DNA from: Streptomyces durmitorensis
GTDB taxonomy: Bacteria; Actinomycetota; Actinomycetes; Streptomycetales; Streptomycetaceae
Direction of reading: 5' to 3'
Length of the DNA: 64,000 nt
Assembly (NCBI RefSeq): GCF_023498005.1
Contig: NZ_CP097289.1
Location: 7,502,001 to 7,566,000 of the forward strand
Shown piece by piece: positions 25,052 through 45,700 of the stretch (the stretch's first letter is position 1; the number at the start of each line of letters is the position of its first letter). The notes beneath the pieces are model-generated. The model ran no database searches. It was not told the origin of the DNA and was given only the letters and a program-made list of their open reading frames with translations. Made by a program: the position numbers and the translations under genes.

Positions 25052-25697
25052 CGGAGTAACGCTCCTCACGCCAGGGATTGCCCCGGTGGTGATAGCCGTT
25101 CTGCTCCCAGAAGCCGGGCTCGTCGTGGTCCAGGAGCCGCAGCCCCGCGACCCACTTCACGCTCTTCCAGAAGTAGAGATGGGGGACGATCAGGCGCGCG
25201 GGGCCGCCGTGCTCGGGAGGCAGCGGGCCGTCCCCGTACTCCCAGACGATCCACGCCTTGCCGCCCGTCACATCGGCGAGGGGGAGGTTCGTGGTGTACC
25301 CCGTGTGCGAGTACGCGACGACGTGCGTGGCCTCGGGGCGCGGCCCGGCGGCGGCCAGGAACGCGTCCAGGCTCGCCCCGCCGAAGCGCACCCCGAACTT
25401 GGACCAGCTGGTCACGCAGTGGATGTCCCCGCGGTACTCGGACGCGGGCAGCTCGTGCGCGTCGTCCCACGTCCAGGTGCGCGGGGACGTCACGAGTCCG
25501 TCCACGCGGAAAGTCCACTCCGCGGGCGAGAGCTCGGGCGTCACCTCGGCGGACAGGACGGGCCAGCCGTCGGCGGCGTCGTACTGCCCGGGAGGCAGCC
25601 GTGGGTCGCGGTCGGCCGCGCGGGCGCGGCCGGTGAAGCCGCGGGTGGGTTCGACGGGCCTACGCTGCTCGATGGTCGTACGGTGCTCGATGGTCAT
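25044..25697 (-). CDS. Sulfite-oxidase-like molybdopterin oxidoreductase
   Basis: The product is 217 residues and contains only the Moco domain of the sulfite oxidase family. WTFRVDGLV and RTWTWDDAHELP are followed by DIHCVTSWSKFGVRFGG, whose Cys ligates molybdenum, and by AYSHTGYTTNLPL. There is no Tat signal and no heme or dimer domain, so it is cytoplasmic. Substrate unknown; sulfite or a sulfoxide is plausible in this sulfur-related cluster. The ATG overlaps the amidohydrolase stop (ATGA). Confidence 0.85.
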   Translation of the reverse strand: MTIEHRTTIEQRRPVEPTRGFTGRARAADRDPRLPPGQYDAADGWPVLSAEVTPELSPAEWTFRVDGLVTSPRTWTWDDAHELPASEYRGDIHCVTSWSKFGVRFGGASLDAFLAAAGPRPEATHVVAYSHTGYTTNLPLADVTGGKAWIVWEYGDGPLPPEHGGPARLIVPHLYFWKSVKWVAGLRLLDHDEPGFWEQNGYHHRGNPWREERYSGD

Positions 25698-27064
25698 ACG
25701 GTGCTTGCCACTTCGGAGGTGCTCGGTGCCGCGGAGTCGGCCGCGTCCTGCAGGGCTCGCAGCGCGCGCTGCTCGTCCACTGTCTCCAGCGTACGGTCGC
25801 GCATCAGGACACGGCCGTCGACCACCGTGTCGCGCACGTCGGACGAGGCGGCGGAGTACGCCAGCATCGACCACGGGTCGTGCCGCGGCGTGAGATGCGG
25901 CCGGGCGAGGTCGAGGACGATCAGGTCCGCGCGCTTGCCCGGCTCCAGGGAGCCCAGCTGGTTGCCGAGGCCAAGGGCCCGCGCGGATTCGATGGTCGCC
26001 ATCCGGACGGCCTGCTCCGCGCCGACCGCCGTCGGGTCGCCGCCCGCCTTGTGCACGAGCGCCGCGAGCTTCACCGCGCCGAGCAGGTCGAGCGTGTTGG
26101 AACTCACGGCGCCGTCCGTGCCGAGGCCCACCGTGACGCCCGCGTCGAGCAGGGCGGGGACGCGCGCGATGCCGCAGCCCAGCTTCAGGTTCGACACCGG
26201 GCAGTGCGCGACGGCCGTGCCGGTGCGGGCGATGGCCGCGATCTCCGCGTCCGTGAGGTCCACCGCGTGCGCGAGCAGCGTGTCCGGGCCGAGCACGCCG
26301 AGCGATTCGAGCAGCTCCACGGGGCGCATGCCGTGCTGCTCGGTGACCATCGCCACCTCGCCCGCGTTCTCGGCGGCGTGGATGTGCAGGAGCGCGCCGT
26401 GCTCGCGGGCCAGCGCGCTGATCGCCGTCAGCTGTTCCGGTACGAGGGTGTACGCGGAGTGCGCGAAGACCACAGGCCGGGTGCCAGGGGCCGGGGTGCG
26501 GGCGGCCAGGTCGGCCGCCGCCCAGCCGAGCCGGTCGGCGTAGGGGCGACCGTCCGGCGGGCCCGGCACGTCCATGAACGTGGGGCCCGTCAGGAGGCGC
26601 CACCCGGCATCGCGGGCCACGGCCTCGGCCGCCTCGTGGAACCAGTACATGTCGAGCGCCGTGGTGACCCCGCCGCGCACGGACTCGGCGATCGCGCCCT
26701 GGATGCCCGCCGTCACCGTCTCCGGGGAGAGCTGCTTCGCCTCGGCCGGGATCACGCGGGCCAGGAAGCCCTGCAGCGTGAGGTCGTCGGCGATGCCGCG
26801 GAACAGGGTCATCGCCAGGTGCGTGTGCGTGTTGATCAGGCCGGGCAGGACGAGGCAGCCGCGGGCGTCGAGTTCGTCGGCCGCCTCGTACGCGGCGCGC
26901 AGCCGCTCGGCGGGGCCGACCTCGACGATCCGGCCGTCGCGCACGGCGACGGCGCCGTCCTTCACGACCGTGCCGGACGCGTCGACGGTGAGGACGTCGC
27001 CGCCGTGGACCAGGAGGTCCATGGAGCCGCCCCGGTCCTGGGCCGGCAGGTCAGTGGGGTGCAT
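25694..27064 (-). CDS. Amidohydrolase, MTA/S-adenosylhomocysteine deaminase-like
   Basis: The product is 456 residues. The metal site of the TrzA/MtaD-type amidohydrolases is visible: His80 and His82 in NTHTHLAMTLFRG, His in LHIHAAENAGE, His in LLAHAVDL and Asp in GLGTDGAVSSN. This group deaminates adenosine-type compounds such as 5'-methylthioadenosine and S-adenosylhomocysteine. With the nucleoside phosphorylase upstream and mtnABCD nearby, deamination of methylthioadenosine to methylthioinosine is the best guess; guanine or 8-oxoguanine deamination is an alternative. GGAG precedes the ATG at 27064; an internal ATG at 27022 is a weaker start. Confidence 0.85.
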   Translation of the reverse strand: MHPTDLPAQDRGGSMDLLVHGGDVLTVDASGTVVKDGAVAVRDGRIVEVGPAERLRAAYEAADELDARGCLVLPGLINTHTHLAMTLFRGIADDLTLQGFLARVIPAEAKQLSPETVTAGIQGAIAESVRGGVTTALDMYWFHEAAEAVARDAGWRLLTGPTFMDVPGPPDGRPYADRLGWAAADLAARTPAPGTRPVVFAHSAYTLVPEQLTAISALAREHGALLHIHAAENAGEVAMVTEQHGMRPVELLESLGVLGPDTLLAHAVDLTDAEIAAIARTGTAVAHCPVSNLKLGCGIARVPALLDAGVTVGLGTDGAVSSNTLDLLGAVKLAALVHKAGGDPTAVGAEQAVRMATIESARALGLGNQLGSLEPGKRADLIVLDLARPHLTPRHDPWSMLAYSAASSDVRDTVVDGRVLMRDRTLETVDEQRALRALQDAADSAAPSTSEVASTV

Positions 27065-27100: not shown

Positions 27101-27883
27101 TCAGTGCTCCGTGGCGGCCAGGAGCCGGAGCGCGTCCAAGGCTATCCGGGCGCCCCGGTCGACTCCCTCGGCCACCACGTTGCGGTGCGGGTTGTAGCCG
27201 CCTGTCGAAAAAGGGGCGTCCTCGTCGACGAGTTCGTCGGCGTTGGCGCCGTCCACTACCAGCGCGCCGCCCGCGACGAGACCGTGCGTGGACGCGAAGA
27301 CGTACAGCGCCGAGAGCTCCATCTCGATGGCAGCGATCCCGGCGGCCGCGTACGCCTCGCCGGGCAGCGGCAGGAAGCCGGGCTGGAACGCGGCCCGCGT
27401 CCACACCACGCCACGGTGGTACGGGGCCTGCGCCGCGCGCGCCGCCCGCTGGAGCGCGATGACCGCCTCCGGAGTCGCGAACGCCGGGTACTCGGCGGGG
27501 ATCAGCTGCTGCGTCACGCCGTCGTCGCGCACCGCCGCGTCCGCGATGACCAGGTCGCCGTCGCGGATGCCGGGGCGGATCGCGCCCGCCGTGCCGAGCC
27601 GCAGGATGGTGGTGACGCCCGCATCGGCGAGCTCCTGGAAGAGCAGGATCGCGCCGGGGGCGCCGACGCCGTGCGAGGCGACGACGACCGGGGTGCCCTG
27701 CCACGTGCCGGTGAAGGTGCGGTACTCGCGGTGGTACGACACCTCCTTCGTGTCGTCCAGGAGATCGGCGACGGCGCTCGCGCGCGCCGGGTCGCCCACG
27801 ACGACGGCGCGGGTGGGCAGGCCGGTGCGGGGGACGCGGGTGATGGGCAGCGCGTCGGTGAACGTTCGGGCTTCGGTCGTCAT
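27101..27883 (-). CDS. Nucleoside phosphorylase (PNP/UDP family)
   Basis: The product is 260 residues. It has the phosphate-binding GDPARA, the glycine-rich ILRLGTAGAI and the ribose-binding AIEMELSALY, a trimer- or hexamer-forming PNP/uridine phosphorylase pattern. It splits a nucleoside with phosphate to base and (methylthio)ribose-1-phosphate. In this cluster methylthioinosine is a reasonable substrate, giving methylthioribose-1-phosphate directly for MtnA. It is coupled to the ABC permease gene (ATGA overlap) and has GGAG 7 bases before its ATG. Confidence 0.87.
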   Translation of the reverse strand: MTTEARTFTDALPITRVPRTGLPTRAVVVGDPARASAVADLLDDTKEVSYHREYRTFTGTWQGTPVVVASHGVGAPGAILLFQELADAGVTTILRLGTAGAIRPGIRDGDLVIADAAVRDDGVTQQLIPAEYPAFATPEAVIALQRAARAAQAPYHRGVVWTRAAFQPGFLPLPGEAYAAAGIAAIEMELSALYVFASTHGLVAGGALVVDGANADELVDEDAPFSTGGYNPHRNVVAEGVDRGARIALDALRLLAATEH

Positions 27884-28776
27884 GAGGGTGCTCCTACCAG
27901 GGGCTGCTTGCGGCGGCGCCTGCGCGCCGTGGACAGGAAGAGTGCGGCGAGCGTCACCACGTACGGCGCCGCGTCGGTCGCCTGCTGTGGCATGCCGAGC
28001 CCCTGGAGACGGAAGCCGACGGCCTCCGCGATGCCGAACAGCAGCCCGGCGAGCAGGACGCCGAGCGGCAGGGCGCGGCCCAGCATCACGGCCACCACGG
28101 CGATCCAACCACGCCCGGCCGTCATGTTCTCGGAGAACAACGTGACGTTGCCGAGGGCTAGTTGGGCTCCCGCGAGCCCGCACAGGACGCCTGACGTCAG
28201 GACGGCGGCGTACTGGTACTTTGCCGGGCTCACCCCCAGCGTCGCCGCCGCGTCGGGCGCCTCGCCCACGCCGCGAAGCCGCAGGCCCCACGGGTGGCGG
28301 GCCAGGAACACCGCGGCCACGGCGACGGCGGCCCACGAGAGGTACACGAGCGCGGAGTGCCCGGAGAACACCGCCCCGGCGAACGGGATGTCGATGCCGC
28401 CGAGTCCGGCCAACTCCGGGTCGGAGAAGGTGCCCTGCACGCCGAAGACCGTACGCAGCAGGAACCCCGTCAGACCGACCGCGAGGAGGTTGAGCGCGAC
28501 GCCGAGCACGACGGCGTCACCGCGCAGCGAGATCGTCCCGACGGCCAGGATCATCGAGTACGCCGCCGACGCGAGGGCGGCGAACACGACACCGAGCCAG
28601 GCGCTCCCGGTGAACCAGCTGCCCGCGACACCGCTGAAGCAGCCGATCAGCATCATGCCTTCGAGGCCGATGTTGAAGACGCCCGCGCGCTCGCAGATCG
28701 CGCCGCCGAGCGCGGCGAGGAGGATCGGGGTGAGGGCGAGGAGCGCCGAGTGGAACAGCGCGGAATCGATGCTCAT
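27880..28776 (-). CDS. Nucleoside-type ABC transporter permease, second subunit
   Basis: The product is 298 residues with about 8-9 hydrophobic segments and the family motif ERAGVFNIGLEGMMLIGCF near residue 35, followed by LRGDAVVLGVALNLLAVGLTG. This is the shorter permease of BmpA-dependent (guanosine or simple-sugar-like) ABC importers. The ATG at 28776 overlaps the stop of the first permease gene (ATGA). The highly basic C terminus (STARRRRRKQPL) is cytoplasmic. Confidence 0.9.
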   Translation of the reverse strand: MSIDSALFHSALLALTPILLAALGGAICERAGVFNIGLEGMMLIGCFSGVAGSWFTGSAWLGVVFAALASAAYSMILAVGTISLRGDAVVLGVALNLLAVGLTGFLLRTVFGVQGTFSDPELAGLGGIDIPFAGAVFSGHSALVYLSWAAVAVAAVFLARHPWGLRLRGVGEAPDAAATLGVSPAKYQYAAVLTSGVLCGLAGAQLALGNVTLFSENMTAGRGWIAVVAVMLGRALPLGVLLAGLLFGIAEAVGFRLQGLGMPQQATDAAPYVVTLAALFLSTARRRRRKQPLVGAPS

Positions 28777-29852
28777 CGCACGCTCACTTCCTTCACTTCG
28801 ATCTCGGCGGTGGGCTTCTTCCTCGCCCGCCGCCACGTCAGGTTGAGCCGCGCCGCCAGGAAGACGATGACGACGGCCTGGAGGACCTGCGTCAGCTCGC
28901 GCGGCACCTCGGTGGTCCGCTCCATGGCGAGCCCGCCCACTTCGAGCGCCGCGAAGAACAGGGCGGCGAGCGCCGTCCCGAGGGGCGCCGCGGCGGCGAG
29001 GAGCGCGGCCGTCAGGCCGGTCCAGGTGTGCCCGGCCGCGGTGAGCGAACCGTCGATGAAGCGATAGGGGAAGCTCAGTACGCCGATGGCGCCGACCAGA
29101 CCCGCGACGGCCCCGGAGAGCGCCATGAGCCGCAGCGTCAGCCGCGGCCTGTCGACCCCCGCGTACGCGGCGAAGCGCGGATTGAGCCCCGTCATGCGGA
29201 TCTCGTAGCCGGTGGCGGTACGGGCGTCGGCGAACACGAAGACGGCGACCGCGGCGGCCACCAGGAGCAGCCCGACGGTGACGGTCGACGACCCGAAGGC
29301 GGGCAGCTCGACCCCGTCGGGAAGCCGCCGGGTCTGCGGAAGGCTCGACCCGTCCTCCTTGAGCGGAAAGCGCGCGAGGTAGGAGGCGAAGGACATCGCC
29401 GGATAGCCGAGCAGCAGGCTGCTGACGAGCAGCGGCACCCCGAACCGGTTCTGGCAGACGGCGGCGAGCGCGGCGTAGGCGGCGCCGGCCGCCATCCCCG
29501 CGAGCAGGCAGGCGACGACGGTCAGCGGCGCGGGCAGCGGCGAGTAGAGCCCGGTGGCGGCCGCGGCGATCCCGCCGAGCACCAACTGCCCGTCACCGCC
29601 GAGGTTGAGCAGCCCCGCCCGCATGGGGATCGCGAGCGCGAGGGCGAGCCCGATGACGCTGGTCCCGGTGGTGAGCGTGGACCCGATGCCGTCGGGCCCG
29701 AGCGCGCCGCTGACGACGGAGCCGTACGCCCCGACGGGGTCGGCCCCCGTCCCGACGAGGAAGAGCGCGCCGACGATCACGGCGGCGACGACGGAGTGCA
29801 GCGCGGGGGAGCGAAGGCTCCGGCTGCCCAGGGAGCGGATCGTGGCACCCAT
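28773..29852 (-). CDS. Nucleoside-type ABC transporter permease, first subunit
   Basis: The product is 359 residues, multispanning, with ALALAIPMRAGLLNLGGDGQLVLGG (the matching motif of the first permease) and a cytoplasmic loop TATGYEIRMTGLNPRFAAYAGV. It pairs with the 298-residue permease, the double ABC ATPase and the BmpA-like lipoprotein to form one importer, likely for purine nucleosides or methylthio-nucleosides. Its ATG is 1 base after the ATPase stop codon. Confidence 0.9.
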   Translation of the reverse strand: MGATIRSLGSRSLRSPALHSVVAAVIVGALFLVGTGADPVGAYGSVVSGALGPDGIGSTLTTGTSVIGLALALAIPMRAGLLNLGGDGQLVLGGIAAAATGLYSPLPAPLTVVACLLAGMAAGAAYAALAAVCQNRFGVPLLVSSLLLGYPAMSFASYLARFPLKEDGSSLPQTRRLPDGVELPAFGSSTVTVGLLLVAAAVAVFVFADARTATGYEIRMTGLNPRFAAYAGVDRPRLTLRLMALSGAVAGLVGAIGVLSFPYRFIDGSLTAAGHTWTGLTAALLAAAAPLGTALAALFFAALEVGGLAMERTTEVPRELTQVLQAVVIVFLAARLNLTWRRARKKPTAEIEVKEVSVR

Positions 29853-29853
29853 G

Positions 29854-31452
29854 TCAGGGGGCCTCCTTCACGGGGGCGGGTTCGCTCTCGCGGGGAGGCG
29901 GGACCGTGGCTTCATCGGTGGTGCCGGTGCCGGTGCCGGTGCCGGTGCCGGTGCCCGAGCCGCCCGCCATGGCGAGACCGAGGGTTCGCTCGTCCGCGTC
30001 CGCGCGGGCGTACTCCGCGGCCACCCGCCCCTCGTACATCACCAGGACACGGTCCGACAGGCCGCGGATCTCGCTCAGTTCGGCGGAGACCAGGAGGATC
30101 GCGTGGCCCGCGTCGCGGTGGGCGATCAGCTGGTCGTGGATGGTCTGGATGGCGCCGATGTCGACGCCCCGGGTGGGCTGCTCGACGATCAACAGGGGCG
30201 ATTCATGGGCGAGTTCGCGGCCGATCACCAGCTTCTGGAGGTTGCCGCCGGACAGCGAGCCCGCCGTGTGGCGGGACGAGGCCGCCCTGATGCCGAAGCG
30301 TTCGATCAGGACGCGCGCGTGCTCGCGGAGCCAGGACGGGTGCAGGAGGCCGTGCCCCCGGTGGTGGCCCATCGCCAGGTTCTCGGCGATCGTCGCGGCC
30401 TGCGCCGTGCCGACCGCCGCGCGGTCCTCGGGGACGTAGGCGAGACCCGCAGCGCGGCGCCCCGCGGCCGACGCGTCCGTGACGTCCTGCCCGCAGAGCG
30501 TGACCCGGCCGCGGGAGACCGGACGCAATCCGGCTATCGCCTCGACGAGTTCGCTCTGGCCGTTGCCCGCCACGCCCGCGATCCCCACGATCTCGCCCGC
30601 GCGGACGGAGAGCGTGACCTCGCGCACGGCGTCCGTCGACAGGGAGTCGACGAGGAGGACGTCGCCGCCCGGAGTTCCCGTCGGATGCACGCGGTCCAGC
30701 TCCACCGCGCGTCCCGTCATCGCGGCGGCGATCCCGTCCGCGCTGGTGTCCGCGGTCCGCATCCGCGCCGCGACGCGGCCGTCCCGCAGGACCGTCACCG
30801 CGTCGCTGCCCTCCATCACCTCGCGCAGCTTGTGGGTGACGAGGAGAATCGTGCGCCCGTCGTCCGCGAGGGAGCGCAGCACACCGAACAAGGCGTCGGC
30901 CTCCGACGGGGTCAGGACCGCCGTCGGCTCGTCGAGGATCAGCGTGCGGGCGCCGCGGTAGAGGAGCTTGAGGATCTCCACCCGCTGGCGCACGCCCACC
31001 GGCAGGTCCCCGACCTTCGCCGCCGGGTCCACCGCGAGCCCGTGTTCCTCGGCGAGCGCACCCACCCGCCGCAGCGCCTTTGCCCGGTCCGTCAGACCGA
31101 AACGGCGCGGCTCGGCGGCGTACACGACGTTCTCCGCGACCGTGAAGGACGGGAAGAGCTTGAAGCTCTGGTGCACCATGCCGAGGCCCGCCGCGATCGC
31201 CTCGCTCGGGCTCGCGAACGTGCGCTCGCGCCCGTCGAGCAGGATCTGCCCGGCGTCCGGCCGCTGAAGCCCGTAGAGCACGGACATGAGCGTCGACTTG
31301 CCCGCGCCGTTCTCGCCCATCAGGGCGTGGATCTCGCCGCGCGCGACGGTCAGGTCCACCCGGTCGTTGGCGAGGGTGCCGGGGAACTCCTTGGTGATGC
31401 CGCGGAGTTCGACGGCGGGGGAGTCGGTGCCGGAATCAGGCAGCGGGGTCAT
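29854..31452 (-). CDS. ABC transporter ATP-binding protein with two ATPase domains
   Basis: The product is 532 residues with duplicated ABC domains. The first has Walker A GENGAGKST near residue 50 and LILDEPTAVLTPSE. The second has a degenerate Walker A (GVAGNGQSEL), the signature LSGGNLQK and LLIVEQPTRGVD. This is the usual arrangement of BmpA-associated importers. The C terminus ends in a GT-repeat tail encoded by six GGTGCC copies. Its start overlaps the end of the BmpA gene by 17 bases. Confidence 0.92.
   Translation of the reverse strand: MTPLPDSGTDSPAVELRGITKEFPGTLANDRVDLTVARGEIHALMGENGAGKSTLMSVLYGLQRPDAGQILLDGRERTFASPSEAIAAGLGMVHQSFKLFPSFTVAENVVYAAEPRRFGLTDRAKALRRVGALAEEHGLAVDPAAKVGDLPVGVRQRVEILKLLYRGARTLILDEPTAVLTPSEADALFGVLRSLADDGRTILLVTHKLREVMEGSDAVTVLRDGRVAARMRTADTSADGIAAAMTGRAVELDRVHPTGTPGGDVLLVDSLSTDAVREVTLSVRAGEIVGIAGVAGNGQSELVEAIAGLRPVSRGRVTLCGQDVTDASAAGRRAAGLAYVPEDRAAVGTAQAATIAENLAMGHHRGHGLLHPSWLREHARVLIERFGIRAASSRHTAGSLSGGNLQKLVIGRELAHESPLLIVEQPTRGVDIGAIQTIHDQLIAHRDAGHAILLVSAELSEIRGLSDRVLVMYEGRVAAEYARADADERTLGLAMAGGSGTGTGTGTGTGTTDEATVPPPRESEPAPVKEAP
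29920..29955. repeat. Six tandem copies of GGTGCC in the ABC ATPase gene
   Basis: A 36-base hexanucleotide microsatellite near the 3' end of the ATPase gene encodes a Gly-Thr repeat. Length changes in steps of 6 would keep the frame. Confidence 0.9.
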
Positions 31453-32500
31453 TGACCTTCAGCTTCCCCGCGATGATCTCGTCCCGCAGCGACTCGACGC
31501 GCTTCAGCACGTCCTTGTGGTCGGCGATCAGGCACTGGGAGTCCGCGACGCCGGGCTCAAGGCCGGTCAGCGACATCCCGCCCTCCTTGAGGCCGTACGA
31601 CACCGTGGTGCCGCCCTTGCCCTTGAGGATCTGCGCGATGCCCTTCTCGACGGCGACATCGGTCTTCTTCAGTACGTTGTCGACGACGACCCCGGCATTG
31701 CCGACGCACTGGTTCGCGTCGACGCCGTACGCCTGGAACCCCTTGGCCTTCGCGGCCTGGAAGACACCGGTGTTGCCGCCGGCCGCGGCCGCCATCACCT
31801 GGTCGGCACCGCCCGAACCGATGGTCGCCGCCTGGTCCTTGGCACGTGCCGCGTCACTGAATGGGGACTGCCCGCCGACGAAGAGTGTGCGGTCCTCGAC
31901 CCCCGCCTTCGCCTTCTTCGCACCGGCCGCGAACGGCTCGCTGTAGCGGCGGAACTGCACGCTGTCGAGGACGACGACGGCGCCCACCTTCTTGCTCTTG
32001 GTGAGCAGACCGGCCTCGGCGCCCGCGAGGTACACCGCCTCGTGCTCGCGGAAGACCGCGCACGTGACGTTCTTGAACGTCTTCTTCGTGCACGCGTCGA
32101 CGAGCAGGAACTGCTGCTTGGGGTGCGCCTTTGCCTGCTGTGCGGCGATGTCGGCGAACTCGAAGCCGACGAGCGCGATGACGTCGGGCGCGGAGTCCAC
32201 GGCCGACTGCACGTTCTGCTGCTGCGAGGACGTGTCGCTGCTCTGGAAGACCTTCGGGGCCCCGGCGCCCTGCGCCTTGGCCGCCGACTTGACCCCGCTG
32301 ACGGCCAGCTTGAGGAACTCGTTCTGCGCCACCGGGTCGGGCGTGACGAGCGTGAACGACTTGGCTCCCTCGCCGGCGTCCGCATCGCCCTTCTTCGCCG
32401 CCGCGTTGCAGCCGGTGGCGAGAAGGGCGGCGCCGACGGCGAGCGACGACAGCCGAAGGGACGTACGACGGGATATGCGAAGCGGCATGCGCAGGGACAT
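31436..32500 (-). CDS. BmpA/Med-type nucleoside-binding lipoprotein
   Basis: The product is 354 residues. The signal peptide ends in lipobox LLATGC (Cys32), so the mature protein is anchored outside the membrane. The body fits the basic membrane lipoprotein (PnrA-like) fold: DVIALVGFEFADIAAQQAKAHP, GAEAGLLTKSKKVGAVVVLD and AYGVDANQCVGNAGVVVDNVLKK. PnrA-like proteins bind purine nucleosides. It is the first structural gene of the transporter operon and is preceded by a Cys-rich leader ORF. The ATG at 32500 is assumed; one at 32488 is possible. Confidence 0.9.
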   Translation of the reverse strand: MSLRMPLRISRRTSLRLSSLAVGAALLATGCNAAAKKGDADAGEGAKSFTLVTPDPVAQNEFLKLAVSGVKSAAKAQGAGAPKVFQSSDTSSQQQNVQSAVDSAPDVIALVGFEFADIAAQQAKAHPKQQFLLVDACTKKTFKNVTCAVFREHEAVYLAGAEAGLLTKSKKVGAVVVLDSVQFRRYSEPFAAGAKKAKAGVEDRTLFVGGQSPFSDAARAKDQAATIGSGGADQVMAAAAGGNTGVFQAAKAKGFQAYGVDANQCVGNAGVVVDNVLKKTDVAVEKGIAQILKGKGGTTVSYGLKEGGMSLTGLEPGVADSQCLIADHKDVLKRVESLRDEIIAGKLKVNDPAA

Positions 32501-32575
32501 ACGGGAGCGCCTTCTCGAAGGAGCCTGGGAGCCCAGGCGGCGGTGGCAGGGGGCGGTTCGGGACGTGCGAAGCGG

Positions 32576-32590
32576 TGTCGCTCAGCGACA
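32576..32590 (-). promoter_or_regulatory. Hairpin at the leader-peptide stop codon
   Basis: TGTCGCT and AGCGACA form a 7-bp stem around the stop codon of the Cys-rich leader. The same GCTGTCGC-like units recur in the Cys codons, so post-stop sequence could pair at alternative positions as a ribosome moves. A second hairpin, a 7-bp inverted repeat, lies at 32523-32538 between the leader and the BmpA start. Confidence 0.45.
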
Positions 32591-32692
32591 ACAGCGACAG
32601 CAGCGGCGACAGCGGCACATTCGGCGGCCGTCGGGCACGCTGTCGGTCACGGCGGGGCAGCGCATGGAGCCGGCGGTCCGCTGGGCTTTCAT
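32582..32692 (-). CDS. Cys-rich leader peptide (36 codons), candidate attenuator
   Basis: The product is 36 residues, starting MKAQRTAGSMRC and ending MCRCRRCCRCCR; seven residues are Cys, six of them within the last 11. GAGGAGG lies 6 bases before the ATG, an almost perfect ribosome binding site. Four of the six terminal Cys codons are TGT, rare in such high-G+C DNA. The stop lies 81 bases before the BmpA gene on the same strand, and a hairpin spans the stop codon. Poly-Cys upstream ORFs are known in actinobacteria as cysteine-responsive attenuators, and a cysteine/methionine-sensing role fits the methionine-salvage context. Not proven to be translated. Confidence 0.7.
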   Translation of the reverse strand: MKAQRTAGSMRCPAVTDSVPDGRRMCRCRRCCRCCR

Positions 32693-32774
32693 GGCCGTCC
32701 TCCTCGCACCGTGGATCGATCCGTCCTGGGTGGCGGTGAGGGTAACACCGGATTTCGGACAGCCGCACGAACGT

Positions 32775-32792
32775 CTCGAAATATGGTTCGAG
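32775..32792. promoter_or_regulatory. Inverted repeat upstream of mtnA
   Basis: CTCGAAATATGGTTCGAG has 6-bp arms and a 6-base spacer, between the divergent mtnA gene and the leader/transporter operon. TACGGT follows at 32802-32807 and could be a -10 element. A regulator site is likely; the regulator is not identified. Confidence 0.5.
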
Positions 32793-32863
32793 CACGTCAG
32801 GTACGGTGACGGCACCCCTCCCCGCATGGCCACAAACGCCCCTATTTTCCCGGAGTTGAGCAC

Positions 32864-33916
32864 ATGAGCAGCCAGGACCTGCGCGCTGTCACGTGGACGG
32901 CGGCGGCGGAGGGCGCCGCGCCCTCCCTCTCCCTCATCGACCAGACCGCGCTCCCGCACGCCCTGGAGCGCCTCGACGTCACGACGGTCGACCAGCTGAT
33001 CGACGCGATCGTGCGGCTCGTGGTCCGCGGGGCACCGGCGATCGGCGCGGCCGGTGGGTACGGGGTCGCGCTCGCCATGGCGCAGGGCGAGCGCGAGGGC
33101 TGGGACCGGGCACGCCTGGACGCGGAGGTCGCGCGGGTGCGTGCGGCGCGGCCCACCGCCGTGAACCTGATGGTGTGCGTGGACCGGGTCGCCCCGCTCA
33201 TCGGCGCCGGTCTGCCCGCGGTGCTCGCGGAGGCCGACGCGATCGTGCGGGAGGACCTGGAGGCGAACCACGCGATGGGCGCGTTCGGTGCGGACTGGCT
33301 CCTGAAGCGCCTGTCCGTGGACCGTCCGCTGCGGATCCTGACCCACTGCAACACGGGCGCGCTCGCCACGGCGGGCTGGGGCACGGCCCTTGGCGTCATA
33401 CGCGAACTGCACGGCCGTGGACGCCTGGAGGCGGTGTACGCCGACGAGACCCGCCCCCTGCTCCAGGGCGCGCGCCTGACGGCGTGGGAGCTGGCCCAGG
33501 AGGGGATACCCCACTTCGTCCAGGCGGACGGCGCGGCCGCGGGCACGATTCTGCGGGGTGAGGTGGACGCGGCGATCGTCGGCGCGGACCGGATCGCGGC
33601 GAACGGCGACACGGCCAACAAGGTGGGCACCGTGGGGATCGCGCTCGCGTGCGCGTACGCGGGAATCCCGTTCGTGGTGGCCGCGCCCACGACGACGGTG
33701 GATCTGGCCACGGCGACGGGGACCGACATCGAGATTGAACTGCGGAGTGAGGACGAGGTGTTGGAGTGGGGCGGTGTGCGGACCGCTCCGGCGGGGTCGC
33801 GGGGGCACAACCCTGCCTTTGATGTGACGCCGGGTTCGTTGGTGACGGGGCTGGTCACGGAGCGGGGTGTGCTGGAGGTGGGGGCGGGGGAGTTGCCGGA
33901 GTCCGGGCTGAGCTAG
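32864..33916 (+). CDS. mtnA: S-methyl-5-thioribose-1-phosphate isomerase
   Basis: MtnA converts methylthioribose-1-phosphate to methylthioribulose-1-phosphate in methionine salvage. The 350-residue product shares the eIF2B-alpha-like fold. It shows VRGAPAIGAAGGYGVAL, the catalytic Cys162 in LTHCNTGALAT, Asp242 in IVGADRIAANGDTANKVGT and the C-terminal NPAFDVTPGSLVTGLVTERG. GGAG lies 8 bases before the ATG. It is the only plus-strand gene of the salvage set and converges with mtnB at repeat copy B. Confidence 0.95.
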   Translation: MSSQDLRAVTWTAAAEGAAPSLSLIDQTALPHALERLDVTTVDQLIDAIVRLVVRGAPAIGAAGGYGVALAMAQGEREGWDRARLDAEVARVRAARPTAVNLMVCVDRVAPLIGAGLPAVLAEADAIVREDLEANHAMGAFGADWLLKRLSVDRPLRILTHCNTGALATAGWGTALGVIRELHGRGRLEAVYADETRPLLQGARLTAWELAQEGIPHFVQADGAAAGTILRGEVDAAIVGADRIAANGDTANKVGTVGIALACAYAGIPFVVAAPTTTVDLATATGTDIEIELRSEDEVLEWGGVRTAPAGSRGHNPAFDVTPGSLVTGLVTERGVLEVGAGELPESGLS

Positions 33917-34045: not shown

Positions 34046-34654
34046 TCAGCTTCGCGTCAGCTCAAGCTCCAGCAACCACTCCACCACCTCAGTACGGTGC
34101 CGCGCCTCGCGAGGATCCGCACCCCACACATAAAGCCCGTGCCCAGCCACCACCACCGCCGGCATCCCGGGCGAGAGCGCAGCCTCCAACCGATCCCCGA
34201 GCACAGCCATGTCCTGGCTGTTCTCGATCACCGGCAGCGTCACGGCGACCTCATGCGTCCCGTGCCCCAGCCCCTTCAGCATCTCCAGGTCCCGGAAGGC
34301 AATCCCCCCGGGCGACCGGTGCCCCATCGCCACCGACGCCACGGTGTGCACATGCACCACGGCCCCGGCCCCGGTCAGCGCAGCCACCCGCGCGTGCAGC
34401 GCCGCCTCCGCCGAGGGGCGCCCCGCGCCGAGCGCCGCACCGGACGCGTCCGTCAACACCACGTCTGCCGCGGTGAGTTCACCCTTGTCCCGCCCACTCG
34501 CCGTCACGGCGAGCTGGAGCGGCGTACGCGAGAGGACCACGGACAGGTTCCCGGACGTACCCCGCATCCATCCGAACGAGGCGAAGCGCGCGGCCTCGGC
34601 GGCGAGGACGGCGCCCGCCTCCTCCAGGTCGAGAACTGAAGTGGTCTCACTCAT
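34046..34654 (-). CDS. mtnB: Methylthioribulose-1-phosphate dehydratase
   Basis: The product is 202 residues of the class II aldolase fold. It has GWMRGTSGNLSV, TASGRDKGELT, the zinc ligands in VVHVHTVASVAMGH and VVVAGHGLYVWG. It dehydrates methylthioribulose-1-phosphate to the diketo phosphate used by MtnC. AGGAG lies 6 bases before the ATG, which overlaps the mtnC stop (ATGA). It is the last gene of the mtnD-mtnC-mtnB run. Confidence 0.92.
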   Translation of the reverse strand: MSETTSVLDLEEAGAVLAAEAARFASFGWMRGTSGNLSVVLSRTPLQLAVTASGRDKGELTAADVVLTDASGAALGAGRPSAEAALHARVAALTGAGAVVHVHTVASVAMGHRSPGGIAFRDLEMLKGLGHGTHEVAVTLPVIENSQDMAVLGDRLEAALSPGMPAVVVAGHGLYVWGADPREARHRTEVVEWLLELELTRS

Positions 34655-35403
34655 CGAACGCTCCTGGTTGACACAAAGCTGATCTCGTCGAAGGCCGCGG
34701 CCTCCGGATGTCCGCCGACCCCGGCGGCGAAGTAGGGCTCCCCGGCCCGCCGTACACCGACGGTCAGCCACCCGGCGTCCCGCGCCGCGTCCAGCTCCCC
34801 GAGCCGGTCGGAGAGGAACAGCGTGCGGCCGGGGTCCACCCCGACAGCGGCGGAAATGGCCCGGTAGGAGTCCGGCTCCTGCTTGGGGCCCGCGTTCTCG
34901 GTGTCGTAGAAACCGCTCACGAGCTCCATCAGGGAACCCTCGGGCGAGTACGTGAACCACGCCCGCTGCGCCGCGACGGACCCGGACGAGTACACGTACA
35001 GGCGCACCCCGCCGCCGTCCCCGTCCCCGTCCGCGGACCAGCCCCGCAGCACACCGATCACCTCGGGGTAGAAGTGCGAGACCAGCTCGCCCCGCGCGAA
35101 GCCCTCCGCCCAGAGGATGCCCTGGAGCGTCTTCAGGGGCGTCGCCTTGCGATCGGCGTCGACCCATGCGCCCAGGATCTGCTCCACCCGCCCGGCATCG
35201 GCCCCCGGCTCACCGGCCAGTTCGCGCACCTGCGCGACCGCCCGCGCCACCTCCGGCTCGTCGCCCCGCGAGGCGAGCAGCGCCCCGAAGCGCTCGCGGG
35301 CGTAGGGGTAGAGCACATCCACCACGAACCCCGTGGCGCTCGTGGTGCCCTCGATGTCGAGGACCACGGCGTCCACGGAGCCCGCGTCGAACTGAACGGT
35401 CAC
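34651..35403 (-). CDS. mtnC: Enolase-phosphatase E1, acireductone synthase
   Basis: The product is 250 residues and a HAD-superfamily enzyme. Asp16 and Glu18 lie in [10 protein letters not shown], followed by [24 protein letters not shown] and [13 protein letters not shown]. It enolises and dephosphorylates the diketo phosphate to give acireductone. The GTG start at 35403 lies in a GTGA overlap with the mtnD stop. Confidence 0.93.
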
Positions 35404-35984
35404 GCCGTGTACCCCGCGTGGATCGCGTCGAAGTCCGGGAAGCGGTCCGCGATCGGGCTGCCCGTGAACGTGCCGATCCAGCCGTCCTCCTCGTGGAAGA
35501 AACGGATCGCCGTGAACGCGGGGGACGTGCCCATGTCGAACCAATGCGTCGTGCCGCGCGGCACCCCGAGCAGATCGCCCTTCTCGCAGTAGACCGCGTG
35601 CACTTCACCGGCCACGTGCAGATAGAAGATGCCGGAGCCCGCGACGAAGAACCGCACCTCGTCATCGTCGTCGTGCGTGTGCTCGGCGAGGAACTTCTGC
35701 CGGGCGGCCTTCGCCTTCTCTGGCCACTCGGGGTCGTCGCTGGGGTGCAGCGCGACCACGTCGACCGTCTGGAAGCCCTCCTCGGCGTTGAGCCGGTCGA
35801 TCTCCGTGCGGTACGCGGCGAAGACGGCGTCGCTGTCCGCGTCGGCGGGCACGTCCTCGCGCACCGGCCACTGCTCGTAGCGCACACCGACGGGGGCCAG
35901 CGCGGCGGCGATCTCGGCCGGGTCGGCGGTGCGGCGTATGACGGTCTCGGGGCCGGACTCCGGCCAGGTCGTCAGGAGGGTCAT
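35400..35984 (-). CDS. mtnD: Acireductone dioxygenase
   Basis: The product is 194 residues and a cupin. Metal ligands are His102, His104 and Glu109 in [16 protein letters not shown], and His147 in GTTHWFDMG. With iron it gives 2-oxo-4-methylthiobutyrate, the methionine precursor, plus formate; with nickel it gives an off-pathway product. GGAG lies 6 bases before the ATG. It heads the mtnD-mtnC-mtnB operon and is 58 bases downstream of the LLM gene, with which it may be cotranscribed. Confidence 0.93.
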
Positions 35985-42548: not shown

Positions 42549-42594
42549 CCCGGGCCGCACACCCCCCCAGAAGCCGGACCGTGGGCGGCCCGGG
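42549..42594. other. Hairpin in the gylR-metH gap
   Basis: CCCGGGCCGC at 42549-42558 pairs with GCGGCCCGGG at 42585-42594 around a 26-base C-rich loop. It lies upstream of the proposed metH transcription start, so it is unlikely to be a metH leader element. Function unknown; no B12 box is visible. Confidence 0.5.
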
Positions 42595-42639
42595 GCGTCC
42601 GCACCATGAACACTCAAGCGCCGTGGACCTTCGTCCCGC

Positions 42640-42645
42640 TACCCT
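42640..42645 (+). promoter_or_regulatory. Candidate -10 hexamer for metH
   Basis: TACCCT lies 6 bases before an in-frame GTG at 42652 and about 64 bases before the ATG at 42709. It allows either a leaderless GTG start or a short leader before the ATG. Confidence 0.4.
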
Positions 42646-42708
42646 GACCGAGTGCGCCTTCCACCGAAGCGCAAAGCCGACAGCCGTCGCACCTCAGGGA
42701 GCTCTTTC

Positions 42709-45700
42709 ATGGCCTCGTTGCCAACCCCCTCGTCCGGTCTCCACGACGGGACCCGAGTCGAAGCCCTTCGCGAAGCCCTCGCCACCCGCGTCGTGGTGGC
42801 CGACGGAGCGATGGGCACGATGCTCCAGGCACAGGACCCCACTCTTGAGGACTTCCAGAACCTCGAGGGCTGTAACGAGATCCTGAACGTGACCCGCCCG
42901 GACATCGTGCGCTCGGTCCACGAGGAGTACTTCGCGGTCGGTGTCGACTGTGTCGAGACGAACACGTTCGGCACGAACTTCGCCGCCTTGAGCGAGTACG
43001 ACATCACCGAGCGGAACCACGAGCTCTCCGAGGCGGGCGCGCGGATCGCCCGCGAGGTCGCCGACGAGTTCACCGCGAAGACCGGTCAGCAGCGCTGGGT
43101 CCTTGGCTCGATGGGCCCCGGCACCAAGCTGCCGACCCTGGGCCACGCCCCGTACACGACGCTGCGTGACGCCTACCAGATCAACGCCGAGGGCATGATC
43201 GCGGGCGGCGCCGACGCCCTCCTGGTGGAGACGACCCAGGACCTGCTGCAGACCAAGTCCGCGATCCTGGGCGCCCGCCGCGCCCTGGAGGCCACCGGCA
43301 CGAGCCTCCCGCTGATCTGCTCGGTCACCGTCGAGACCACCGGCACGATGCTGCTCGGCTCCGAGATCGGCGCGGCCCTGACCGCGCTGGAGCCGCTGGG
43401 CATCGACATGATCGGCCTGAACTGCGCCACGGGCCCGGCCGAGATGAGCGAGCACCTGCGCTATCTGGCCCGCCACTCGCGCGTCCCGATCTCCTGCATG
43501 CCCAACGCGGGCCTGCCGGTCCTGGGCAAGAACGGCGCCCACTACCCGCTGACCGAGGCCGAGCTCGCCGACGCCCAGGAGACCTTCGTACGCGAGTACG
43601 GCCTCTCCCTGGTCGGCGGCTGCTGCGGCACGACCCCCGAGCACCTGCGCCAGGTCGTGGAGCGGGTGCGCGGCGTGGAGACGGTGCGCCGTGAGCCGCA
43701 CCCCGAGCCCGGCGCGGCCTCGCTCTACCAGACCGTGCCCTTCCGCCAGGACACCGCCTACATGGCGATCGGCGAGCGCACGAACGCCAACGGCTCGAAG
43801 AAGTTCCGCGAGGCGATGCTGGACGCCCGCTGGGACGACTGTGTGGAGATGGCCCGTGACCAGATCCGCGAGGGCGCCCACATGCTCGACCTGTGCGTCG
43901 ACTACGTGGGCCGTGACGGCGTCGCGGACATGGCCGAGCTCGCCGGCCGGTTCGCCACCGCCTCCACGCTGCCCATCGTCCTGGACTCGACCGAACTGCC
44001 GGTCATCCAGGCCGGGTTGGAGAAGCTGGGCGGCCGCGCGGTCATCAACTCCGTCAACTACGAGGACGGGGACGGCCCCGAGTCCCGCTTCGCGAAGGTC
44101 ACCGCGCTCGCCAAGGAGCACGGCGCCGCGCTGATCGCGCTGACCATCGACGAGGAGGGCCAGGCCCGCACCGTCGAGCACAAGGTCGCCATCGCCGAGC
44201 GCCTCATCGAGGACCTGACCGGCAACTGGGGCATCCACGAGTCGGACATCCTCATCGACACCCTGACCTTCACCATCTGCACCGGTCAGGAGGAGTCCCG
44301 CAAGGACGGCATCGCCACCATCGAGGCGATCCGCGAGCTCAAGCGCCGCCACCCGGACGTGCAGACCACCCTGGGCCTGTCGAACATCTCCTTCGGCCTC
44401 AACCCGGCCGCCCGTGTCGTGTTGAACTCCGTCTTCCTGGACGAGTGCGTCAAGGCGGGCCTGGACTCGGCCATCGTGCACGCCTCCAAGATCCTGCCCA
44501 TCGCGCGGCTGGAGGAGGAGCAGGTCAAGGTCGCCCACGACCTGATCTACGACCGCCGCGAAGAGGGCTATGACCCCTTGCAGAAGCTCATGGAGCTCTT
44601 CGAGGGCGTCAACATGAAGTCGATGAAGGCGGGCAAGGCCGAGGAGCTCCTTGCCCTGCCGCTGGACGAGCGGCTCCAGCGCCGCATCATCGACGGCGAG
44701 AAGAACGGCCTGGAGGACGACCTCACCGAGGCCCTGGAGACCCGCCCGGCGCTCGACATCGTCAACGACACCCTCCTGGAGGGCATGAAGGTCGTGGGCG
44801 AGCTGTTCGGCTCGGGCCAGATGCAGCTGCCCTTCGTGCTGCAGTCCGCGGAGGTCATGAAGACCGCGGTCGCGCACCTGGAGCCGCACATGGAGAAGTC
44901 GGACTCCGAGGGCAAGGGCACCATCGTCCTGGCCACCGTCCGCGGCGACGTCCACGACATCGGCAAGAACCTCGTCGACATCATCTTGTCCAACAACGGC
45001 TACAACGTGGTCAACCTCGGCATCAAGCAGCCCGTAGCGGCGATCCTGGACGCCGCGGCCGAGCACCGCGCCGACGTGATCGGCATGTCGGGTCTCCTGG
45101 TGAAGTCGACCGTGATCATGAAGGAGAACCTGGAGGAGCTCAACCAGCGCAAGATGGCGGCCGACTTCCCGGTGATCCTCGGCGGCGCGGCGCTGACCCG
45201 TGCGTACGTCGAGCAGGACCTGCACGAGATCTACGAGGGCGAGGTCCGCTACGCCCGCGACGCGTTCGAGGGCCTGCGCCTGATGGACGCCCTCATCGCG
45301 GTCAAGCGCGGCGTCCCCGGCGCCACCCTGCCCGAGCTGAAGCAGCGCCGCGTGCCCAAGAAGGACACCCCCGTCCTGGAGGTCACCGAGGACGACGGGC
45401 CCGCCCGCTCGGACGTCTCGGTCGACAATCCCGTCCCCACCCCGCCGTTCTGGGGCACCCGCGTGGTCAAGGGCATCCAGCTCAAGGAGTACGCCTCCTG
45501 GCTGGACGAGGGCGCCCTGTTCAAGGGCCAGTGGGGCCTCAAGGAGGCCCGCAAGGGTGACGGACCCTCGTACGAGGAGCTCGTCGAGACCGAGGGCCGG
45601 CCCCGCCTTCGAGGCTGGCTGGACGAGCTGCACACCAAGAACATGCTGGAGGCGGCCGTTGTGCACGGCTACTTCCCCTGCGTCTCCAAGGGTGACGACC

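Follow-up and report, generated by a model that had tools for sequence, protein, structure and literature searches.

The polycysteine leader ORFs of mycobacteria are short, Cys-rich ORFs found upstream of cysteine-linked operons, and in the available portions of the reports on them they are leaderless and contain adjacent Cys codons (PMC9031893, PMC9094748, PMC13236596). The leaders of the cys operons of Mycobacterium and Propionibacterium carry Cys codons near the stop, lack a terminator hairpin and are followed by a C/T-rich stretch; Rho sites were suspected there, with the suggestion worded weakly, and the motifs were called not conserved in the accessible part of that paper (PMC1262725). 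In the Rhodobacterales, the Cys-codon leader uORFC-8-2 precedes cysS and is thought to sense Cys-tRNA; the excerpt at hand reports an intrinsic terminator of its own and UGC as the dominant codon (PMC8632094). The metL leader of metNIQ in S. lividans has Cys, Met, and Arg in its tail (ARCMCRRMCAF) and is described, in the text obtainable from that study, as methionine/threonine-containing and methionine-dependent (PMC8079986).

In this report, we describe a leader ORF in a 64,000-nucleotide stretch of DNA from Streptomyces durmitorensis, referred to below as the window. Like the mycobacterial polycysteine ORFs, it is a short, Cys-rich upstream ORF; unlike them, it has a strong Shine-Dalgarno sequence, so that by sequence it is not a leaderless ORF, Arg residues stand between its Cys codons, and its target operon is a different one, headed by bmpA. 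With the cys leaders of Mycobacterium and Propionibacterium it shares the Cys codons near the stop, the absence of a terminator hairpin and a C-rich stretch that follows, and it differs from what the available text says of them in that the bmpA spacers show an excess of C over G at every locus and belong to a salvage and import operon. The metL leader resembles it in its Cys- and Arg-containing tail and stands before another operon. At E <= 1e-3, the metNIQ leader itself has a match in 55 of 61 genomes that represent the genus; the copy in the S. durmitorensis genome (L221, C1:7658504-7658587) lies outside the window. Among the 20 metNIQ loci that were read (L220-L239), the first and second Cys codons are TGT in 18 and 17, respectively, and the third is TGC in 14 and TGT in 1. 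Since the first two are mostly TGT, the metNIQ leader may also sense cysteine.

The features of the locus are collected in Table 1. The leader ORF lies on the minus strand in the intergenic region between the divergent genes mtnA and bmpA. The earlier note had described a 36-codon ORF with a nearly ideal GAGGAGG ribosome binding site, a tail with 6 Cys among its final 11 residues (TGT being used for 4 of these 6 codons), a gap of 81 nt to the ATG of bmpA and a stem across the leader stop; each of these was confirmed. The product reads MKAQRTAGSMRCPAVTDSVPDGRRMCRCRRCCRCCR up to the stop codon, with MCRCRRCCRCCR as its tail, and the GAGGAGG is 6 bases from the ATG. Because the reading frame stays open upstream as far as 33979, the start at 32692 leans on the Shine-Dalgarno sequence and on its conservation in the four loci of what is called the window clade below. 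The window contains 62 short ORFs of 15-50 aa that are preceded by a Shine-Dalgarno sequence, and this leader is alone among them in having more than two Cys within its last 12 residues. When the intergenic region was shuffled 4000 times with its dinucleotides preserved, at least six Cys at this position were never reached by any short ORF, and at least three, in an ORF preceded by a Shine-Dalgarno sequence, were reached in two.

Table 1. Features of the leader locus and its neighborhood in the window
Feature	Position	Strand	Basis
Amidohydrolase (approximate start); nearest solved relative an MTA/SAH deaminase	25694..27025	-	similarity
Nucleoside phosphorylase	27101..27883	-	PF01048, E 3.5e-40
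ABC permease 2 (approximate start)	27880..28785	-	annotation by similarity, conserved order
ABC permease 1	28773..29852	-	annotation by similarity, conserved order
ABC transporter ATPase	29854..31452	-	annotation by similarity, conserved order
bmpA, PnrA-like binding lipoprotein	31436..32500	-	PF02608, E 2.9e-35
Spacer between the leader stop and bmpA, rich in C (0.49) and poor in G (0.25) over 69 nt	32501..32581	-	composition; proposed Rho loading stretch
Putative Shine-Dalgarno sequence of bmpA, GAGAAGG (likely)	32510..32516	-	sequence
Perfect 6-bp stem spanning the leader stop, TGTCGC-TGA-GCGACA	32576..32590	-	read by eye; window clade only
Leader ORF of 36 codons plus stop, with a Cys-rich tail	32582..32692	-	sequence, relatives
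Leader Shine-Dalgarno sequence, GAGGAGG	32699..32705	-	sequence; same in the four window-clade loci
Conserved upstream block, CTCGAA-N6-TTCGAG (32792-32775) and TGTTACCCT (32747-32739)	32739..32792	-	alignment
mtnA-like gene, divergent	32864..33916	+	PF01008; conserved neighbor
mtnD-mtnC-mtnB-like genes	34046..35984	-	PF03079, PF00702, PF00596; conserved neighbors

Orthologues of bmpA were collected from two sources. A single scan of genome contigs gave 17 loci (16 from Streptomyces and one from 'Actinobacteria bacterium OK074'), and 21 of 199 genomes of the genus, that of the window included, encode a protein that is 65-100% identical; the best BmpA match in every other genome of the 199 had an E value of 2.4e-24 or weaker. 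Leader ORFs were selected upstream of bmpA by an SD-like site, a length of 12-50 aa and a Cys within the last 8 residues. Such an ORF was found at all 38 loci, the window among them, a set that includes near duplicates and contains 34 distinct leader-to-bmpA stretches. The window (L018) and three relatives (L001, L019, and L020) form what we call the window clade, with ATG starts, GAGGAGG before the ATG, an Arg/Cys tail with additional Cys codons and no RRxxD motif. The other 34 loci, which are the main group of 33 and L030, mostly have a GTG start and two or three Cys, and their usual form is LLTxRRFLDxGRCxxDxCRR; a degenerate version of this segment is found in L034 and L009, and the leader of L030 reads TSRRHIDLCRCAAAGCCL. 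For the 23 distinct 51-nt 3' ends from 33 main-group loci (L030 and the window clade excluded), pN/pS was 0.40 when read in the frame of the leader, against 1.24 and 1.64 for the two remaining frames. By this pattern of substitution, the main-group leader is evolving as coding sequence. The alignment across Streptomyces that the earlier note had called for upholds the leader ORF and its coding selection, but what has been conserved is something other than the poly-Cys tail. The window tail may have arisen by the loss of an old stop codon, which is one among several readings that the alignment allows. The stem over the stop codon can be drawn by eye in the window clade, with 6 bp in L018 and L001 and about 4 bp in L019 and L020, and none could be drawn at the main-group loci. 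With a profile of the leader (A1) searched against 297 Streptomycetaceae genomes, 8 of the 30 fetched loci scored above 42 bits, all of them just upstream of bmpA; the other 22, below 33 bits, had no bmpA within the 1.5 kb flank. A profile of the window-clade leader gave nothing else convincing in the S. durmitorensis genome, where the next best match had an E value of 1.9.

A block farther upstream is kept in most of 15 aligned loci and deviates in L030. Its inverted repeat is GAACCACAGTTC in most relatives and CTCGAA-N6-TTCGAG in the window. From its conservation, this block is likely the promoter or operator of the leader transcript; a scan with a sigma-70 pattern gave no promoter match there. 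Lying between mtnA and bmpA, it may be an operator common to both divergent transcripts.

The earlier note had placed the leader on a nucleoside importer next to mtnABCD, and the presence of an importer operon there was borne out. The order mtnD-mtnC-mtnB, mtnA, and divergent bmpA-ATPase-permease-permease-phosphorylase-deaminase was found in all seven complete neighborhoods that were fetched, and an eighth (L215), which ends past the ATPase, agrees up to that point. BmpA falls among the PnrA-like binding proteins and the phosphorylase within the purine/uridine phosphorylase superfamily. The leader stands before an operon that adjoins mtnABCD and includes an MTA/SAH-deaminase-like enzyme; the natural reading, in our view, is that MTA or a related nucleoside would be imported, deaminated, and cleaved by phosphorolysis, and would then feed into the mtn pathway. 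Judged by gene content, the operon probably serves the import and salvage of methylthio-nucleosides. Against this choice of substrate, the nearest NCBIfam models for the four transporter components are putative B6 transporters, all of which scored below the cut-off.

The main form of the leader shows the motif, at the same spacing, of NF042934 (cis_reg_atten), a family of sulfur leaders in actinobacteria. In both, a short ORF, which stands before sulfur genes in the family and before a probably sulfur-related operon here, carries R-x-x-D-x-x-R with a Cys nine residues after the Asp, the sensor codon is TGT, and a C-rich stretch follows the stop. The D-x-x-R and the Cys at this distance are present in the 23 distinct main-group 3' ends, except for one D-to-V and one R-to-H change, and also in L030. 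The window clade differs in lacking the motif; the comparable Cys of the window leader is seven residues after the Asp. A search of NCBIfam gave no match at E <= 1 for either the window leader or the main form. The leader of L030 reached 26.7 bits on NF042934, 0.3 bits short of the cut-off of 27, and 22.2 and 12.2 bits on the Cys-rich leader models Ms5788A and Ms4527A (cut-offs of 45). In our judgment, the leader is real, conserved, and of a known kind, and the window-clade version has diverged past the current family model. The bmpA operon is what we take to be a new target for leaders of this kind.

In the S. durmitorensis genome, NF042934 has eight sites above the cut-off and several below it; at the lax threshold of E <= 10, matches below the cut-off also occurred in 10 of 14 control genomes, and at E <= 0.001 in none of the 14. 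The genes behind 14 leaders of this genome (L048-L060 and L082) were inspected. They encode two luciferase-like monooxygenases (that of L055 nearest to alkanesulfonate monooxygenase, below the cut-off), a sulfatase, a ThiS-family protein, a nitrite/sulfite reductase, a cysteine dioxygenase, an ABC permease, a rhodanese, an SsuE FMN reductase (above the cut-off), an NMT1-type binding protein, a flavin reductase, an SDF-family symporter, a protein with a weak GST-domain match, and a TauD-family dioxygenase. Sulfur genes are the majority, and four matches (to the permease, the symporter, the flavin reductase, and GST) are unspecific. The top match of profile A1 in this genome was the leader of the SDF symporter, at 25.8 bits, and the window leader was absent from its 12 matches there. 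The leader of L060 has the motif RRxHIDLxR without a sensor Cys and is followed by a strongly C/T-rich stretch with 45 C and 9 G in 80 nt.

The most surprising result, which reaches beyond this locus, is the choice of codon for the sensor Cys. All 23 distinct main-group sequences of the bmpA leader use TGT for the second invariant Cys; for the first, 14 use TGC and 9 use TGT, and the bmpA coding regions contain 170 TGC and 11 TGT (38 loci, duplicates counted). A search for leaders at the level of the class covered 60 genomes, 50 of which had a match, with 132 matches in total (summed from the table). One hundred of these were read, picked mainly by score, so that the 32 unread matches are mostly the weakest; L199 had no recognizable motif, which leaves 99 leaders, all distinct. 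The Cys nine residues after the Asp is encoded by TGT in 98 of the 99, the exception being TGC in L211. The other Cys codons of the same leaders are TGC in 88 cases and TGT in 23 (Fisher p 8e-36, a value that ignores relatedness and, since the loci are related, overstates their independence). The Cys seven codons upstream of the sensor is TGC in 35 leaders and TGT in 3, and the Cys just after the sensor is mixed, with five of each. The base that follows the sensor codon is C in 78 leaders, T in 17, A in 3, and G in 1 (a pyrimidine in 95 of 99). The scoring pattern was fitted by 29 of the 30 A1 loci, with TGT in all 29, and 13 of the 14 leaders of the S. durmitorensis genome have the sensor Cys, with TGT in all 13. 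Codon choice had no part in the search, because the profiles are protein profiles. Two class-level leaders, L093 and L095, have long Cys runs (GCCCCCCSC) where one or two Cys are usual. Neither a cysteine leader on this operon nor the UGU rule was found in the literature searched, which is weak evidence of absence, as most subscription papers were outside reach.

Several structural candidates were rejected. The earlier note had proposed that repeated units in the Cys codons could pair alternatively, and this claim found no support. The leader-to-bmpA region of the window folds no better than its shuffles (z 0.34; +1.77 for the tail and spacer), the means over 34 loci are z -0.36 and -0.55, and no constant RNA partner for the U of the sensor codon was found over the 99 leaders. 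Sequestration of the bmpA start was rejected as well, the starts being more open than 72 control starts (0.537 vs 0.403; 33 loci, L030 left out). The GC stem and U-tract of a classical attenuator are absent before the operon: no intrinsic terminator was found at 32400-32900, and TTTT occurs in none of the 38 spacers. No Rfam 15 family matched 32501-32863 at its gathering score, and a riboswitch or other structured RNA was set aside. The sole Rfam match in the window is a Streptomyces-metH RNA (RF03076, 96.9 bits, 42594-42711, plus strand), which is a further cis element with a link to sulfur and lies about 10 kb away from the leader.

The composition of the spacer is another matter. A C-rich, G-poor stretch past the leader stop, as in a tnaC-like Rho attenuator, was found at 38 of 38 loci, where C minus G is 0.19-0.38 with a mean of 0.30. 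The control values are 0.03 for 47 upstream regions and 0.035 after 99 ordinary stops, and YC dinucleotides are about twice as frequent in the spacers as in the controls. At the stop of the bmpA leaders, C minus G takes a step: it is 0.00 over the 40 nt that precede the stop and 0.37 over the 40 nt that follow; in the wider family of 99 leaders the step is weaker, from 0.03 to 0.17. By composition, this layout is the one that would be expected if a ribosome stalled near the end of the leader hides a Rho loading stretch. The C-rich, G-poor stretch that begins at the leader stop favors Rho-dependent attenuation, and a Rho step is the best supported among the mechanisms tested.

We propose, with somewhat more confidence than doubt, that the ORF is a translated, cis-acting leader of the sulfur type that controls the methylthio-nucleoside operon, with a Rho-dependent readout. 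When Cys-tRNA is ample, the ribosome would read the Cys codons of the leader, terminate, and leave; the C-rich spacer would then be free from the stop codon onward, and Rho could load and terminate the transcript ahead of bmpA. Under a shortage of cysteine, the ribosome would stall at UGU, the sensor codon, which in the main form lies three codons before the stop, and would cover the start of the spacer, so that the operon is transcribed. That the leader responds to cysteine or sulfur we regard as highly probable; on the Rho step taken by itself our judgment is evenly divided. The sequence evidence for the proposal consists of the conserved operon and its co-conservation with the leader, the coding selection, the motif spacing, the UGU rule, and the excess of C over G in the spacer. 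Of the cysteine-responsive leader that the earlier note had put forward, the ORF that accompanies the operon at 38 of 38 loci, its coding selection, and the resemblance to sulfur leaders hold; the conservation of a poly-Cys tail and the alternative pairing do not. Against the proposal, the window-clade form is known from only four loci, without the RRxxD motif and without an NCBIfam match, and the main-group leaders hold just two or three Cys; the link to cysteine is drawn from the relatives. Against the Rho step, the spacer is as short as 35 nt (L003), 8% of the 99 ordinary post-stop stretches reach a C minus G of 0.19, and the step in the wider family is only to 0.17. From the sequence we infer the translation of the leader, its cysteine response, the action of Rho, and the substrate of the operon.

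Two other readings keep the leader as a regulatory element. In translation attenuation, the mode named for the cysteine leaders of M. smegmatis in the available parts of two reports (PMC13236596, PMC9031893), the leader ribosome would alter the RNA fold or couple to the translation of bmpA and leave transcription unaffected. The stem over the stop codon in the window clade is consistent with this, as are the few orthologue spacers that fold better than their shuffles (tail and spacer z -4.0 in L003 and -3.1 in L035), but the mean folding values, the z of the window tail and spacer, and the open bmpA starts argue against it, and the distance from the leader stop to the bmpA start varies from 35 to 165 nt over the 38 loci. 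We consider it unlikely. Nascent-chain arrest, in which RRxxDxxR in the exit tunnel would stall the ribosome at the Cys codon when a sulfur metabolite signals or Cys-tRNA is scarce, would be compatible with a Rho readout downstream. The conservation of non-Cys residues in the main group speaks for it, although conservation alone is no proof of arrest. All 99 scored leaders of the class have the same distance from Asp to Cys; the scoring pattern permitted two distances, and the leader-finding profile favors this one. The motif is missing in the window clade, and we regard arrest as quite improbable.

The remaining readings deny the leader its regulatory role. The Cys-rich tail of the window clade could belong to a functional small protein, for example one that binds metal, but most orthologues hold two or three Cys, the position before bmpA is fixed, and a synonymous codon is conserved that protein function would not need; this reading is very improbable. 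A chance ORF without function, arising where TGT/CGC units are repeated in GC-rich sequence, would account for the repetitive tail and for the frame that is open far upstream. Its presence at 38 of 38 loci, the coding selection in the main group, and the 0 of 4000 shuffles leave such an origin with a negligible likelihood.

At least two tRNA-Cys genes are present in the S. durmitorensis genome (46 tRNA loci scanned, of 67 matches). Both have the anticodon GCA within a CTGCAAA loop, which gives A36A37A38, described in the accessible text of one report as the site of MiaA (PMC5372745). MiaA and MiaB are both encoded in this genome, with both models matched above the cut-off. It is conceivable, though we give the idea little credence, that the sulfur leaders of actinobacteria detect sulfur by way of the decoding of UGU by tRNA-Cys, in addition to the supply of Cys-tRNA. 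Loss of a putative sulfur- and SAM-derived methylthio group at A37 of tRNA-Cys could slow the wobble reading of UGU, and the slower reading could turn on sulfur scavenging, the import of methylthio-nucleosides included. Since a change from UGU to UGC keeps the peptide unchanged, one experiment would separate codon sensing from peptide sensing.

The position of the leader suggests that sulfur supply may control the importer and salvage operon, and the sulfur status of the cell would then gate the uptake of methylthio-nucleosides. If the proposal is true, the actinobacterial sulfur-leader regulon would extend to nucleoside-type import and methionine salvage. The window clade is a lineage in which the leader lacks the usual motif yet has more Cys codons.
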